Origin: an uncultured Pelagibacteraceae bacterium
Lineage (GTDB): Bacteria > Pseudomonadota > Alphaproteobacteria > Pelagibacterales > Pelagibacteraceae
NCBI GenBank assembly: GCA_902532565.1
Contig: CACAIR010000001.1
Location: 101,991 to 165,990 of the forward strand
Reading direction: 5' to 3'
DNA: 64,000 nucleotides
Part shown: positions 12,494 to 18,919 of the stretch, piece after piece
How the letters are laid out: every line of letters starts with the position of its first letter
How positions within the stretch are numbered: position 1 is the stretch's first letter
Notes under the pieces: generated by a model
What the model was told of the DNA's origin: nothing
Databases searched by the model: none
What the model saw: only the letters and a program-made list of their open reading frames with translations
Translations under genes and position numbers: made by a program

Positions 12494-12904
12494 TTAGTCG
12501 GCGTTAGCTGTTAGTGTTTTAATCTCTAAAATATTTTCATTTGGATCTTTGACAAAAAAAGTTTCTTGTTCATATTTAGTACCTTTAAATCTCAAATATG
12601 GTTCATCATAGTATTTTGCACCTTTTTCATTTAATCTTTTTTTAAGAGCATCAAAATCTTTTCTGGATAAATGAACTCCAAAATGAGGTACAGAAACATT
12701 TCCCATATCAACATCATGTCTTTCGTTGTCTAATTTATGATCACTTGCATGGAGTGTTAATTCGTTTCCCCAAAAATCAACATCAGCCCATTCTTGTGCT
12801 GAATTATCCAATCTACATCCCAGTGTTTCGCTATAAAACTTTTTTGCTAATTCTAGATCACCACATGGTATGGCCAAATGAAAACAGTTTGTGTTTTTAT
12901 ACAT
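12494..12904 (-). CDS. VOC/glyoxalase-family protein
   Basis: HLAIPCGDLELAKKFYSETLGCRL, HFGVHLS, FVKDPNENILEIK. Confidence 0.85.
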   Translation of the reverse strand: MYKNTNCFHLAIPCGDLELAKKFYSETLGCRLDNSAQEWADVDFWGNELTLHASDHKLDNERHDVDMGNVSVPHFGVHLSRKDFDALKKRLNEKGAKYYDEPYLRFKGTKYEQETFFVKDPNENILEIKTLTANAD

Positions 12905-12975: not shown

Positions 12976-13545
12976 ATGAATAATTTTTTACAATCTATAA
13001 TTGACCGGGATCCTGCGGCAAAATCTAAATTAAGTTTAATTTTAACTTATCCTGGTGTCAAAGCAGTTTTTTTTTACAGGATTGCAAATTTTTTCGCAAT
13101 CGCTAAATTTAATTTAATTGCAAGAATCATTTCACAATTTTCAAGATTTTTAACAGGGATAGAAATTCACCCAAGAGCAAAAATAGGAAAAAATTTATTC
13201 ATTGACCATGGTATGGGAGTAGTGATTGGAGAAACATCGGAGATTGGAGATAATGTTACAATTTATCATAACGTTACATTAGGAGGAATTGCTCCAAGTA
13301 TTAATTCAAATGATCAAAGAAATATGAAAAGACACCCAACTTTAGAAGATAATGTTGTTGTCGGTTCTGGTGCTCAAATATTAGGGCCAATTACAATTGG
13401 TAAAAACTCTTTAATTGGTTCAAACTCAGTAGTAACAAAAAATGTATCTGAAAAATCAGTAATGGCCGGCATACCAGCTAAAAGAGTTGGTGATGCTACA
13501 AAAGGATTTAAACCTTATGCAGTTATAGATGAAGATAAAGAATAA
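12976..13545 (+). CDS. cysE: Serine O-acetyltransferase
   Basis: Hexapeptide repeats, [44 protein letters not shown]; overlaps cysK by 1 nt. Confidence 0.92.
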
Positions 13546-14546
13546 TGAAAAATATAAAAAATAATTTTATAGACTCAATTGGAAATACGCCTTTAATAAA
13601 ATTAAAAATAGCATCGAAAATTACTGGGTGCAATATCTATGGTAAAGCTGAGTACTTAAATCCAGGTGGCTCAGTCAAAGATAGAGCTGCACTAGCTTTA
13701 ATAAAAGACGCACAAGAAAAGAAACTAATATCTGAGGGTGGGATTGTGGTTGAGGGAACTGCAGGAAATACTGGAATAGGATTATGTCTCCTTGGAAACT
13801 CTTTAGGTTATAAAACGATAATTGTTATGAATGACAATCAAACACAGGAAAAGAAAGACACTTTAAGAAATGTTGGTGCAGATTTAAGATTAGTTCCACC
13901 AAAACCATATAAAGATGATGGTAATTATGTTAAGGTTGCAGGCAGACTTGCTGAAGAAATAAAAAGTACAAATAACAATGGTGTAGTTTGGGCCAATCAA
14001 TTTGATAACACTGCAAATGCTAAAGGACATTACGAAACAACAGGTCCTGAAATATGGGAACAAACAGATGGAAAAGTTGATGGATTTGTTTGTGCGTCAG
14101 GAACTGGAGGAACTATCGGTGGTGTTAGTAAATATTTAAAAGAAAAAAATAAAGATGTTAAAATTTATCTTGCAGATCCAACCGGTTCAGCTCTCTATAA
14201 TCATATCATGAACGGAGAACTTAAAGCTGAAGGTGGATCAATAACCGAGGGAATAGGATCAAGTAGAATAACTAAAAATTTTGCTGAAGCTAAAATTGAT
14301 GGTGCTTTTTCAATCAGTGATCAAGAATCTTTACCTATACTTTATAACTTAATTCAAAATGAGGGATTAAGTTTAGGAACTAGTTGCGGAGTAAACATTG
14401 CAGGTGCTATTAGATTAGGAAAAGAGCTTGGCCCAGGAAAAACAATTGTTACAATTCTTTGTGATAGATCTGATAAATACAACTCTAAGATGTTTAACAA
14501 ATCATTTTTGAGGGAAAAAAACCTTCCTATTCCAAGCTGGTTATAA
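13545..14546 (+). CDS. cysK: Cysteine synthase A
   Basis: NPGGSVKDRAALALI PLP motif, GTAGNTGIGL, SGTGGTIGGVSKYLK. Confidence 0.92.
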   Translation: MKNIKNNFIDSIGNTPLIKLKIASKITGCNIYGKAEYLNPGGSVKDRAALALIKDAQEKKLISEGGIVVEGTAGNTGIGLCLLGNSLGYKTIIVMNDNQTQEKKDTLRNVGADLRLVPPKPYKDDGNYVKVAGRLAEEIKSTNNNGVVWANQFDNTANAKGHYETTGPEIWEQTDGKVDGFVCASGTGGTIGGVSKYLKEKNKDVKIYLADPTGSALYNHIMNGELKAEGGSITEGIGSSRITKNFAEAKIDGAFSISDQESLPILYNLIQNEGLSLGTSCGVNIAGAIRLGKELGPGKTIVTILCDRSDKYNSKMFNKSFLREKNLPIPSWL

Positions 14547-14561
14547 TATCGCATACCAGCT

Positions 14562-14585
14562 ATGTAACAAAACAGTTACATTTTT
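14562..14585 (+). terminator. Probable weak intrinsic terminator after cysK
   Basis: TGTAAC-AAAACA-GTTACA followed by TTTTT. Confidence 0.45.
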
Positions 14586-14635
14586 GATTTAACATTAATT
14601 AATCTAAATAAGTTATTAAACAATAAGGAGGTGTT

Positions 14636-15010
14636 ATGAAAAAAATTATTACAATTATACTTTCCTTTTTTTTATTCTCATCGGCTTTTGCTGGTATGAA
14701 AGAAGGTGATAAATCAAAAGCTTGGGATTGTGTAGGGATCTATATGGCTAATTACTTTCTTCCACCTGGTGAAGAATTTGAATATGGAATGAAAGAAAAA
14801 TCTATTTCAACTGCAAAGGTTCTAAAAGAGTATGCTCTTGAAATTGGTATTCCAGAAAAAGATTGGGATGATGGAGCAAACAAAGCAGTAGATAAGCATT
14901 ATGGTTCAAAATATGACAAAGCTAAAACTGAAAAATGTCACTCATTCGTTGAAGCTTTAGTTCCTAATGGAGCTGAGAGAGTAAAAAAAGTTGTTCAAAC
15001 ACTATATTAA
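14636..15010 (+). CDS. Small secreted protein, unknown function
   Basis: Signal peptide MKKIITIILSFFLFSSAFA; AAGGAGG Shine-Dalgarno; 124 aa. Confidence 0.75.
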   Translation: MKKIITIILSFFLFSSAFAGMKEGDKSKAWDCVGIYMANYFLPPGEEFEYGMKEKSISTAKVLKEYALEIGIPEKDWDDGANKAVDKHYGSKYDKAKTEKCHSFVEALVPNGAERVKKVVQTLY

Positions 15011-15025
15011 ATAGAAAGGTAAAAA

Positions 15026-15502
15026 ATGAAAAAACTAATAATAGCATTAACTTTTACAATCATTTCAACTGTAGCTTTTGCTAACTCGGGAAAATTTAAT
15101 GCAAGTGGAATGGGGTCTTGGGAAATGAATATTATGAATGCTGGCAATGGTAACATGGCAATTACTTACGATGGAAATGCAGGTCTTACAGATAAAAATC
15201 CAGAGAGTATATTTGACAAATCTACAATGAACTGTGTTGGAGGACTTACATTAGTAAGTGGAAAATTTGATGATGAAACAGGTATGTGCACTTTTTATTT
15301 AGCTGATGGAGAAAAAGTTTTCATGAATTACAAAGGTAAAGGCACCGGTGGTCAAGGAGGATCTGGAACTTTTATAATTATTGGAGGAACTGGAAAATAT
15401 GAAAAAATTTCAGGAACTGGTTTTTCTAGTAGACAGAATCTTAAAGGCAAAGAAGGATTTGCTCACTCAATGAATCAAATGAGTGGTGAGTACACATATT
15501 AA
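15026..15502 (+). CDS. Small secreted protein, possible allene-oxide-cyclase-barrel-like fold
   Basis: Signal peptide ending AFA; FIIIGGTGKYEKISGTGFSS motif; 158 aa. Confidence 0.7.
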   Translation: MKKLIIALTFTIISTVAFANSGKFNASGMGSWEMNIMNAGNGNMAITYDGNAGLTDKNPESIFDKSTMNCVGGLTLVSGKFDDETGMCTFYLADGEKVFMNYKGKGTGGQGGSGTFIIIGGTGKYEKISGTGFSSRQNLKGKEGFAHSMNQMSGEYTY

Positions 15503-15526
15503 ATTAATTAACTATAAGGAGAAATA

Positions 15527-15811
15527 ATGGAAAAAGAAATGTTAGTAGTGGCTAAATTAAAAGAAGGTATGTTTGAAAAGTTTATGGGTTTCATGCAATC
15601 ACCTGAAGGCTTAGCAGAAAGAGCTAAAGTAGCTGTAGTAGAAAAAACTATTGGAACGGTAACACCAGATAAAAGCACTGTAATGTTTAAGATATTTTGT
15701 ACTGATGAACCTGCATTACATAAATTCATAGAAGGAACTGAAGTGTCAAAACCTATCATGGATGCTGTTTTAGATAGCTATTCAATCTATGATTTAACAA
15801 AAGTAAAATAG
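15527..15811 (+). CDS. Small protein, possible ABM-type ferredoxin-like dimeric barrel
   Basis: 94 aa, AAGGAGA Shine-Dalgarno, LVVAKLKEGMFEKFMGFM...; co-directional with neighbours. Confidence 0.65.
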   Translation: MEKEMLVVAKLKEGMFEKFMGFMQSPEGLAERAKVAVVEKTIGTVTPDKSTVMFKIFCTDEPALHKFIEGTEVSKPIMDAVLDSYSIYDLTKVK

Positions 15812-15818
15812 GATAAAT

Positions 15819-16109
15819 ATGAAAAACTACATCGTAACACACACTTTTAAATCAAAAGAAGCTAAAGCTAAAATGATAGAGGTCACTGGCTCAATGTCGA
15901 TGGAAGATATGACTAAAGCAATGACTAGTGAAAATGCAAAATGTCAAATGAGCTGGAACACACCAGGTGATAATTTAACAATGTATTGTTGGTGGAAAGG
16001 TACTAATCCAGATGCAATTAATAAACAGTTAGAATCTATGAATGATTTCTATGAACCTCACAAATTTGTTGAGTGTACAGATGATGTTATAGATTTTAAT
16101 GCTAAATAA
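15819..16109 (+). CDS. Small protein, ferredoxin-like fold suspected
   Basis: 96 aa, NYIVTHTFKSKEAKAKMIEVTGS...NLTMYCWWKG. Confidence 0.65.
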   Translation: MKNYIVTHTFKSKEAKAKMIEVTGSMSMEDMTKAMTSENAKCQMSWNTPGDNLTMYCWWKGTNPDAINKQLESMNDFYEPHKFVECTDDVIDFNAK

Positions 16110-16120
16110 ATGGAGTAACA

Positions 16121-16429
16121 GTGAAAGTAATTTATACAAGAACAATGCGAGTAAAAGATGATGGCCTAGGAAAAGCAATGGAAATTGGGAAAGGTTTGGC
16201 TGCAGTTAGAAAAAAACACTATCCTAACCATGATGTCTATTTTTCTTTTCAAATGGGTGGAGACCCAAGAACAATAAGAGAAACTTTAATTGGAACTATG
16301 TTTGAAGGTGATAATGATGCTGACGCTAACATGTCTGCAGATCCTGAATATATAAAACTTTTAGAGCAATTAAAAGAAGTTGCAATAGAAGGGACTATTG
16401 AAGACGAGATTAGACCAATATTTAGTTAA
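16121..16429 (+). CDS. Small protein of unknown function
   Basis: 102 aa, GTG start (GGAGTAACAGTG), co-directional with neighbours. Confidence 0.65.
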   Translation: MKVIYTRTMRVKDDGLGKAMEIGKGLAAVRKKHYPNHDVYFSFQMGGDPRTIRETLIGTMFEGDNDADANMSADPEYIKLLEQLKEVAIEGTIEDEIRPIFS

Positions 16430-16441
16430 GGAATTTTAAAT

Positions 16442-16858
16442 ATGATAGAAAAATTTAATGGAGTAATTTACTTAGCTTTATTTCTAATTCACTTTATTGG
16501 CTTTGCTTACTATGGATTTAGATGTGTGTTTCAAACACAATCTTTTTTAAATCAATATGGAATGCATGATACAGGTGCTGGGATTGTAAGATTTTTTGGA
16601 TCTATATTTATTGGTTCAACTGTAATGGCAATTTATGTAGGATTCATCAGACCAAATGGCTTAGAGGCTACTTGGGCTTTCTTTAATCTAATATTCTTGC
16701 AAAATTTATCAGCTTTTATAGTTGGTTTTTATAGTACAAAAATTAATAAACTTGGACATACAGATAAAACTTCGGATGAAGCAATCTATGCCCCTTTATT
16801 TTTAACTATTTTAAGTGCTGTACTTTGTTACGGTTTAGCTGATAAAATATACGTTTAA
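16442..16858 (+). CDS. Small integral membrane protein
   Basis: 138 aa with four predicted hydrophobic segments. Confidence 0.65.
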   Translation: MIEKFNGVIYLALFLIHFIGFAYYGFRCVFQTQSFLNQYGMHDTGAGIVRFFGSIFIGSTVMAIYVGFIRPNGLEATWAFFNLIFLQNLSAFIVGFYSTKINKLGHTDKTSDEAIYAPLFLTILSAVLCYGLADKIYV

Positions 16859-16873
16859 ATAAAAGGAGGGGTT

Positions 16874-17224
16874 ATGGCAGGAGTAGAAGTAAAATCTTTC
16901 GAAAAAGCAGATGAGGTTAATGATAATTTTAATAACGCAAAAATAGAAGCTGTAAAAGTTGGAAACCAGAGGGTAATGAAACTTACATTGCAACCTGGAT
17001 GGAAATGGTCAAAAGATATTAAACCAACAGTTGGGGGTGATAGCTGTCAAGCAACGCATCTTGGTGTAATTGTTTCAGGAGCTGTTTGCGCAAAACATAA
17101 TGACGGAACCGAAATAACTTATAAATCTGGAGACGCATATGCTATTCAGCCAGGACATGATGGATGGGTAGTGGGAAATGAACCAGCTATTGTTTATGAG
17201 TTTCACGGAATGTGGGGTGAATAA
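16874..17224 (+). CDS. Cupin-domain protein
   Basis: Preceded by AAGGAGGGG; HLGVIVSGAVCAKHNDGTEITYKSGDAYAIQPGHDGWVVGNEPAIVYEF. Confidence 0.75.
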   Translation: MAGVEVKSFEKADEVNDNFNNAKIEAVKVGNQRVMKLTLQPGWKWSKDIKPTVGGDSCQATHLGVIVSGAVCAKHNDGTEITYKSGDAYAIQPGHDGWVVGNEPAIVYEFHGMWGE

Positions 17225-17544
17225 TGTCGATATTAAAAAGATATACTGATGCAATAGATAAGAAAGACGAAGCAGCTATGAATGAGCTTTTGCATGATGA
17301 TTTTAAGTTTATAATGCATAAATCTGGAAATTCTCTTGGGAAAGCTGACGTAATCAAATGGGCAATGAGTGGTGATATCAATCAAGACAAAGCGCGAATT
17401 GTTTACGAAAATGATGAAGTTGGCGTACACCACTCAATCGTAACTTTTAATGATGGAAATGTAGAAGCTGTAATGGCAGTTTATAAATATAAAGATGGAA
17501 AAATTGCTAGCTTAGAGACTGGTGCTACTCCAATGTCTAAATAA
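17224..17544 (+). CDS. SnoaL/NTF2-like protein
   Basis: RYTDAIDKKDEAAMNELLHDDFKFIMHKSG; start overlaps the previous stop by 1 nt. Confidence 0.7.
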   Translation: MSILKRYTDAIDKKDEAAMNELLHDDFKFIMHKSGNSLGKADVIKWAMSGDINQDKARIVYENDEVGVHHSIVTFNDGNVEAVMAVYKYKDGKIASLETGATPMSK

Positions 17545-17765
17545 TGTTTCCAAAAAAATATTTTGATTTTATATTCATTTTAATTATGGGTTTTGGCATG
17601 AGCTTGCTCATGACACTTATAATTACCTATATAAATACTGGAATGGATAATGAATATATCAATAGATTTTTAAAAGCATGGTCAGTAAGTTTACCTATAG
17701 CAATTATAGCTGCTCTTGTTCTTGGCCCACCAATAAAAAAATTGGTGGATAAAATTACCAATTAA
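17544..17765 (+). CDS. DUF2798-like small membrane protein
   Basis: Two TMs, IMGFGMSLLMTLIITYINTG...FLKAWSVSLPIAIIAALVLGPPIKKLVDKI. Confidence 0.7.
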   Translation: MFPKKYFDFIFILIMGFGMSLLMTLIITYINTGMDNEYINRFLKAWSVSLPIAIIAALVLGPPIKKLVDKITN

Positions 17766-17781
17766 GAATATTCTTAAATTA

Positions 17782-18117
17782 ATGGGTAATATTATTGCAT
17801 ATATTGTTCTTATACTTGCGGTTATTTTAGGCACTGCCGCAAACGGTTTTGCCAAAGGTGCAAATGGTTTTACATTGTTCATACCAAGTTTGTTGACAGC
17901 AATAACTATTGTTGGCTGCATGTTTGCGTTATCTATTGTTATGAAAACTATTCCAGTTGGCATAACTTATGCTTCATTTGCTGGTCTATGTATAATTGCT
18001 ACAACACTTGTTGGAATATTTAGATTTAATCAATTGCCAGATCTTTACACTGTCATAGGTTTAATTTTGATAGTCACAGGTGTATTAATAGTCAACCTTC
18101 TTGGTAAAACTACTTAG
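17782..18117 (+). CDS. Small multidrug resistance (SMR/EmrE) family transporter
   Basis: 111 aa, four TMs, AYIVLILAVILGTAANGFAKGANGF, GITYASFAGLCIIATTLVGIFRF. Confidence 0.82.
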   Translation: MGNIIAYIVLILAVILGTAANGFAKGANGFTLFIPSLLTAITIVGCMFALSIVMKTIPVGITYASFAGLCIIATTLVGIFRFNQLPDLYTVIGLILIVTGVLIVNLLGKTT

Positions 18118-18919
18118 AAACTGGTCTTAAAATTTTTAGAATTTTTTTGTGAATAAGTTTATTTGATGAACAAATTATATTACCTGCTCTTTCAGGATTT
18201 TTATTTTCCCAAGTAGTAACTATTCCTCCAGCTGCTTTTAAAATTGGAATTAAAGGATGAATATCCCAAATCTTATTTGAACACTGCAATACTACATCTA
18301 ATTTACCCTCAGCAAAATGAGAATAACTAAGAGCATCAGCACAAGGAAATTGCATTCGTGTTAAAATTTGAGGAATTTTTTTTTGCTGTTTTAATGATAA
18401 GCTACCATGAAAAGCTGCAGATAATTTCATATTTGACATATTGGCTTCATGATTTACTTTTAATTTTAATTTTTTTCCTTTTTCTGAAACATAGGCATTT
18501 TTAGCTGAACTATTGAAATAATATTTTTTTAATATTGGAAAATTTGCTAGACCTAATACAGGTATTCCCTTGTAGTTCAAAGAAATCAGATTACTCCAAG
18601 TTGGATTGCCTATAACAAATGATCTAGTTCCATCAATAGGATCTATTACCCATGAATATTTACTTTTTGATTTTTTGTGACCAAATTCCTCGCCTATAAC
18701 TTGGTGGTCGGGAAATTTTTTTTTTATTTCTTTCCTAATAAATTTTTCAAATGCCTTATCAGCGCTTGTAACTGGATCATATCCCTTTCCTTTAAGTTTA
18801 TTGGATACTTTGAATGACCTATTTAATTTAGAATAATAAAATTTTGTTAATTTTTTAGCTAATCCCTCAATAAATTTAGAATAAACTTTGTAATCTGATG
18901 ATTTTATCATTGGCAACAA
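18110..18919 (-). CDS. Inositol-monophosphatase family phosphatase (HisN-like)
   Basis: DPVTSADKAFEKFIR, VIGEEFG, WVIDPIDGTRSFVIGNPTW, WDIHPLIPILKAAGG. Confidence 0.85.
   Translation of the reverse strand: MLPMIKSSDYKVYSKFIEGLAKKLTKFYYSKLNRSFKVSNKLKGKGYDPVTSADKAFEKFIRKEIKKKFPDHQVIGEEFGHKKSKSKYSWVIDPIDGTRSFVIGNPTWSNLISLNYKGIPVLGLANFPILKKYYFNSSAKNAYVSEKGKKLKLKVNHEANMSNMKLSAAFHGSLSLKQQKKIPQILTRMQFPCADALSYSHFAEGKLDVVLQCSNKIWDIHPLIPILKAAGGIVTTWENKNPERAGNIICSSNKLIHKKILKILRPVSK

Follow-up and report, generated by a model that had tools for sequence, protein, structure and literature searches.

Ten small genes that follow cysK in a 64,000-nucleotide stretch of an uncultured Pelagibacteraceae genome (contig CACAIR010000001.1 of assembly GCA_902532565.1; hereafter the window) probably represent a single configuration of a hypervariable SAR11 island, devoid of integrase genes and made up of stand-alone gene cassettes, at the junction of cysK and hisN. 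We are close to certain that the island is modular, and it is likely that its cassettes act on their own and not as steps of one pathway. The genes occupy positions 14636-18117 on the plus strand of the window, which comes from a SAR11 (Pelagibacterales) genome of 0.87 Mb that is 67% complete. SAR11 are abundant ocean bacteria known for their streamlined genomes, and the variable regions best known in them are those for surface features and for the uptake of nutrients. An earlier reading of the letters of this DNA (the sequence-only reading) had described ten tightly packed same-strand genes of 73-158 amino acids after cysK. All ten open reading frames (ORFs) and the gaps between them were confirmed.

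Variable content between conserved borders

To describe the island we surveyed 86 genomes, one per species, consisting of the window's own and 85 others with complete cysK-hisN intervals. ORFs were called in each interval and clustered into families. The borders, cysE-cysK on the left and hisN on the right, are constant across the genus, and the content between them changes. The interval spans 1.8-17.9 kb with a median of 4.6 kb, and the 86 genomes display 73 different ordered arrays and 68 different gene sets. The median array has 9 small plus-strand genes with a median gap of 13 nucleotides. Some 25 small families make up the pool on which the arrays draw, and four of them are near-core, namely SMR (82 of 86 genomes), SnoaL (76), the family of window gene 3 (60) and DUF2798 (59). 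The others come and go, and the SMR gene is sometimes present as two neighbouring copies in one array. Parsimony on a tree of the flanking genes gave 4-17 presence changes per family.

No integrase or transposase, as would mark an additive flexible island, was found in the clustered genes of the island intervals or in the ten-gene run of the window. A repeat check of positions 14500-18200 returned short, weak, chance-like repeats only, and no recombination-site repeat shared between cassettes. An integron or mobile element was therefore rejected. A wide taxonomic spread of the genes was rejected as well: of the 299 genomes in a phylum sample, only the window's own had gene 5, and gene 3 was found in just one other of 240 genomes in a class sample, a genome of 1,410,127 bp. 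A search of 121 genomes for gene 4 gave orthologues in 35, counting the window's.

Exchange of single cassettes and arrays at other loci

Single cassettes reach 93-99% nucleotide identity where the cysK and hisN ends of the same genomes are about 72-82% identical, and the blocks of high identity stop at gene ends. At four-fold degenerate sites, compared between genomes with diverged flanks, near-identity (at least 85%) was found in 116 of 13,377 cassette comparisons (0.87%) and in 9 of 43,965 flank-gene windows of about equal length (0.02%). The exchanged units are single genes or short blocks, not the whole cluster. These comparisons of sequences indicate that the island gained content by transfer, and not by vertical loss alone.

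The same families also form arrays at other places. Genus g162 (L235-L238) carries such an array at a different locus; its proteins of families c9 and c2 (window genes 4 and 3) are 96-99% and 93-96% identical in amino acids to their best homologues in the window's genus, and its cysK and hisN are 57-61% and 42-48% identical to the window's, the genome pairs being not exactly those of the c9 and c2 figures. In SAR11 family f2 (L048-L057, L059) a compact five-gene run elsewhere encodes GYD, a 95-amino-acid barrel-sized protein, SnoaL, a SCO4226-like protein and DUF3764, with a TTGTCATAAAAGTTTCAC element 56 nucleotides upstream. The 1,410,127-bp genome holds gene 3, a cupin, gene 5 and SnoaL in a single run. 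Within the window's own genus, the array of genome G495 has been relocated, far from cysK and hisN alike. Independent scatter of orthologues, named by the sequence-only reading as evidence against its proposal, is thus largely what we see; most of the shuffling, though, takes place within a single locus and among the members of a single guild.

One copy of gene 3 (G009:C2:17575-17859) contains an internal TAG stop, possibly a decaying cassette.

A Pho-box-like element ahead of the array

A conserved set of motifs lies between cysK and the first cassette. In the window these are, all on the plus strand, the upstream element GCATACCAG (14551..14559), the candidate Pho-box-like (OmpR/PhoB-type) box ATGTAACAAAACAGTTACAT (14562..14581; pst-matrix score 13.5, shuffle p 0.005) and the hexamer TAACAT (14590..14595), which lies 8 nucleotides past the box and may serve as a -10 element. 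The sequence TGTAACAAAACAGTTACA lies 16 nucleotides past the cysK stop, with GCATACCAG immediately before it and the TATAAT-like hexamer after it. The upstream element, GCATANCWG, occurs in 48 of 86 post-cysK regions and also upstream of the g162 array, and the -10-like hexamer stands at the fixed 8-nucleotide offset in 29 of 52 box-bearing arrays. Box, upstream element and hexamer are conserved regardless of which cassette comes first, and many arrays that open with an inverted gene 6 have, in the spacer between the divergent genes, a related element. A single transcription unit, as proposed by the sequence-only reading, would fit this arrangement. A generic promoter and terminator scan gave background level only, and nothing in the window matched Rfam, so that no known RNA, such as a riboswitch, was recognized before gene 1.

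A Pho box in general consists of two TGTNAY half-sites spaced 11 nucleotides apart, placed before the -10 element. Across 23 genomes the SAR11 pst box, located upstream of pstS or pstC, reads TGTAAY-N5-TGTAAY. When six genomes were searched for the array box with one mismatch allowed, three of them also gave a match about 40 nucleotides ahead of pstC (pstC identity was checked by TIGR02138). Genome-wide counting of the box pattern was abandoned, as the one-mismatch count in the window's genome was not above the reversed control, and a scoring matrix from 13 distinct pst sites, with array sequences excluded, was used instead. At a score of at least 8 this matrix recognized 52 of 86 array promoters, which share ancestry and hence are not independent, versus 1 of 182 other promoters. 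We therefore favor a promoter box of OmpR/PhoB type, which these matches make fairly likely, and a putative phosphate link of the array of moderate strength. That the regulator is specifically PhoB, and its signal phosphate stress, is plausible but held with some reserve.

Besides the shared ancestry, several observations weigh against PhoB, and some of them speak for another regulator at the box. This could be a paralogue from the OmpR family or a dimeric repressor of unrelated type, with the island responding, for example, to oxidative, light or membrane stress. Array boxes mostly score 8-18 versus 22-29 for pst boxes, and they are partly dyad-symmetric, with a near-palindromic TGTAAY-N6-RTTACA. 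Two of six pst-less genomes (G451 and G478, which have neither PhoB nor pst) keep the box, and OmpR/PhoB-family paralogues are present in 24 of 24 genomes checked. In addition, the f2 arrays and the array of the 1,410,127-bp genome gave no significant box match, and the window's own assembly, which is 67% complete, yielded no pstC. On the other side, it is a matrix trained only on pst sites that finds the array boxes over so low a background, and the box has been lost from the other four pst-less genomes (L088, L091, L100 and L103). Another regulator is a serious contender.

In one further genome (L260, G427) a Pho-box-like TGTAATAAAACGGTAACA lies 72 nucleotides upstream of a gene for a periplasmic substrate-binding protein, possibly a further member of the regulon.

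The window locus and its ten genes

On the left, the island is bordered by cysE (12976-13545, plus strand) and cysK (13545-14546, plus strand), both conserved in position across the genus. On the right it meets a hisN-like gene of the inositol-monophosphatase family (18110..18919, minus strand; PF00459, 164.8 bits), which is convergent with the array and also conserved in position. The gaps along the ten-gene run are 15, 24, 7, 11, 12, 15, -1, -1 and 16 nucleotides, with the 1-nucleotide overlaps at 17224 and 17544. Clear Shine-Dalgarno sites precede most of the genes; those of genes 9 and 10 are weak or missing.

All ten genes are on the plus strand. Gene 1 (family c3, 14636..15010) encodes a secreted protein of 124 amino acids with a signal peptide and weak Pfam matches only, and is found in 54 of 86 arrays. 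Gene 2 (c20, 15026..15502; 18 of 86) encodes a secreted orphan of 158 amino acids. Genes 3 (c2, 15527..15811; 60 of 86) and 5 (c12, 16121..16429; 28 of 86) encode orphans of 94 and 102 amino acids with predicted dimeric alpha/beta-barrel folds, NIPSNAP-like in gene 5. Between them, gene 4 (c9, 15819..16109; 35 of 86) encodes a weakly SCO4226-like protein of 96 amino acids, which matches PF14026 with E 0.04 in the window and 0.005 in a relative, both below the cut-off. Gene 6 (c6, 16442..16858; 54 of 86, on either strand) encodes an orphan of 138 amino acids that appears from its sequence to be a multi-pass membrane protein, and in many relatives it is inverted and in first place. A family search of the Pfam type returned nothing convincing for genes 2, 3, 5 and 6, and weak PDB profile matches of genes 2, 4 and 5 were taken as chance.

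Gene 7 (c22, 16874..17224; 17 of 86) is cupin-like, as the sequence-only reading had suggested, although its PF07883 match (E 0.005) is below the cut-off. The SnoaL, DUF2798 and SMR assignments made in that reading all hold above Pfam cut-offs: gene 8 (c1, 17224..17544; 76 of 86) is SnoaL_2/NTF2-like (PF12680, 33.3 bits, cut-off 27, E 7.9e-8), gene 9 (c4, 17544..17765; 59 of 86) encodes a DUF2798 membrane protein (PF11391, 74.4 bits, cut-off 23.5, E 7.5e-21) and gene 10 (c0, 17782..18117; 82 of 86) a putative exporter of the SMR family (PF00893, 51.3 bits, cut-off 23.7, E 1.7e-13).

Immediately left of cysE, on the opposite strand, the window has a VOC/glyoxalase-like gene (12494-12904) with no similarity match in several relatives. 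From this patchy presence, the variable zone may extend past cysE.

Folds and repertoire

Structures were predicted for genes 3 and 5, as monomers only. Both models are confident (AlphaFold pLDDT, the predicted local distance difference test, of 87.7 and 88.8, respectively) and show a ferredoxin-like beta-alpha-beta-beta-alpha-beta order. Foldseek gave template modelling (TM) scores of up to 0.69 for gene 3 against NIPSNAP and antibiotic-biosynthesis-monooxygenase (ABM)-like structures and of 0.77-0.78 for gene 5 against Atu4242 and Atu5224. The top PDB matches of the two models are NIPSNAP-type, LsrG, PA3566, SnoaB and ABM-like proteins. The models thus assign genes 3 and 5 to the dimeric alpha/beta-barrel fold class, in agreement with the guess made from sequence, and a companion guess that gene 2 resembles an allene-oxide-cyclase barrel found no support by sequence, as gene 2 has no Pfam or PDB relative at that level.

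The pool as a whole, which includes DUF1330, GYD, DUF3764, ABM, SCO4226-like, VOC, SnoaL, cupin, cupredoxin, DsbA-like, TPR, SMR and DUF2798 members, is strikingly alike in kind. Tandem duplication from one ancestor was considered and rejected: profile comparisons link the families mainly via signal peptides, and the best other link, between c2 and c5, is weak (probability 38.6%). The families are not recent duplicates of one another. Phage or defence cargo was likewise discarded, since PADLOC returned no match, none of the viral contigs encodes gene 3 and the sole strong match to a named PHROG was that of the SMR gene to QacE.

Pathway, gene trap or cassettes

The sequence-only reading had proposed an undescribed accessory biosynthetic or catabolic pathway, whose successive steps would fall to the cupin, SnoaL and dimeric-barrel enzymes, with the SMR protein as exporter of the product. 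Folds of these kinds are found repeatedly in the oxidation and cyclisation of natural products, SnoaB is among the structural neighbours, the SnoaL and SMR members are conserved and the layout is operon-like. The run is far beyond chance, with orthologues in many species and its exact ten-family order repeated in L148, L161 and L167 in a second, partly overlapping survey; L133 has the ten families in the same order plus four additional genes. However, all ten families occur together in only 2 of the 86 genomes, content and order differ almost species by species, some arrays at other loci have four or five members and no large biosynthetic enzyme is constant in the arrays of the 86 genomes. A fixed pathway needs an obligate set, and here each family has its own history of gain, loss, reordering and exchange. 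An apparently undescribed accessory set stands, and a defined pathway is improbable. Two patterns of family linkage speak against fully independent cassettes: c9 and c12 co-occur with a phi of 0.64, and c1 is present in every genome that has c2, c12 or c22. A partly common process centred on the SnoaL protein is thus possible.

In another genome (L240, G499) all ten families are present, with the order scrambled and gene 6 inverted.

A neutral gene trap, i.e. a tolerant insertion site gathering small genes with no common role, would account for the free change of gene order and for the longer inserts of unrelated ABC or TRAP transporters and photolyase-like genes in some genomes. It is equally hard to credit, because the same restricted guild of families recurs at other loci and in other lineages, the cassettes keep open frames with amino acid identity well above four-fold-site identity, and SAR11 genomes are streamlined. 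As for the conserved box, the idea that it is merely the cysK terminator can be set aside with little hesitation: TGTAAC and GTTACA can pair and a T-run often follows, but the box is kept ahead of the relocated G495 array with no cysK near, the TATAAT-like hexamer stands at a fixed offset, the T-run is absent from some box versions, and the strong GC-rich hairpins that precede pstC in the same genus show that weak AT stems are not the norm.

In one clade (L101, L105, L106, L108, L109, L117 and L134) two further inserts bring the intervals to more than 15 kb. One comprises TRAP transporter genes together with an isocitrate-lyase-like enzyme (c31-c34), the other an ABC transporter of dipeptide type (c7, c18, c19).

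A possible role for the array

Taking the island of stand-alone cassettes as our working model, we picture an array as about 3-15 small genes behind a single shared promoter element, drawn from the pool of about 25 families. Each cassette would be an independent small homo-oligomer with a buried pocket for the binding or conversion of a small molecule, hydrophobic or reactive in nature, and export of cationic or toxic compounds would fall to the SMR protein. The array would then be a mix-and-match stress or detoxification kit rather than an ordered pathway. Cassettes would persist because each of them supplies one more distinct pocket protein from a shared transcript, and a newcomer that brings its own ribosome-binding site should be functional immediately. 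For the swaps, homologous recombination within the borders and within near-core genes would be enough. An OmpR/PhoB-type regulator, most likely PhoB, would drive the promoter, so that the kit is made under phosphate stress.

The chemistry of the array is inferred, and its cellular role, to deal with small molecules that are reactive or foreign during phosphate stress or a related one, is the least certain step. A detoxification or reactive-metabolite role is a tentative suggestion. The full combination, a portable combinatorial repertoire of stand-alone pocket proteins, reshuffled gene by gene with no dedicated recombinase and placed under a PhoB-type promoter as a new phosphate-stress branch for reactive or foreign small molecules, is speculative and, taken as a whole, doubtful. 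The different hand of small cytosolic proteins in nearly every species suggests selection for diversity of the repertoire in one of Earth's most abundant organisms. If the Pho link is true, the roughly 25 families, the majority currently labelled unknown, would have a condition assigned to them.

Comparison with known systems

We found no description of the cysK-hisN array locus in the literature, nor any expression data on its genes. Genes 3 and 5 resemble NIPSNAP/ABM proteins (Atu4242, LsrG, SnoaB) in size, in the order of strands and helices and in their Foldseek matches; they differ in having no detectable sequence family, the likeness coming from monomer models alone. Chromosomal integron cassette arrays likewise have co-directional small genes, variable order and an upstream promoter, whereas the cysK-hisN array has neither an integrase gene nor a shared inter-cassette recombination-site repeat. 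Phosphate-related flexible islands of HIMB59 and SAR11 share with it the variable content, a possible tie to phosphate stress and streamlined marine hosts; pst, phoRB, phosphatase or phosphonate genes belong to those islands and are absent from the array (PMC10734472, PMC7318151).

The SAR11 hypervariable regions HVR1-HVR4 encode surface polysaccharide, pili and transport, and unknowns near bhmT (Wilhelm et al. 2007, PMC2217521). They are similar in their conserved borders, in content that varies between close relatives, in their many unknown genes and in having no attC sites, but none of the four listed corresponds to the cysK-hisN array of small pocket proteins (PMC2217521). A further parallel is with additive and replacement flexible genomic islands, which occupy the same position in all strains and whose exchange could proceed by homologous recombination within their borders (Lopez-Perez et al. 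2014, PMC4033161). Replacement islands swap whole surface-structure clusters (PMC4033161), whereas the cysK-hisN array, devoid of mobile-element genes, swaps single small genes, so that its mostly intracellular proteins are replaced gene by gene.

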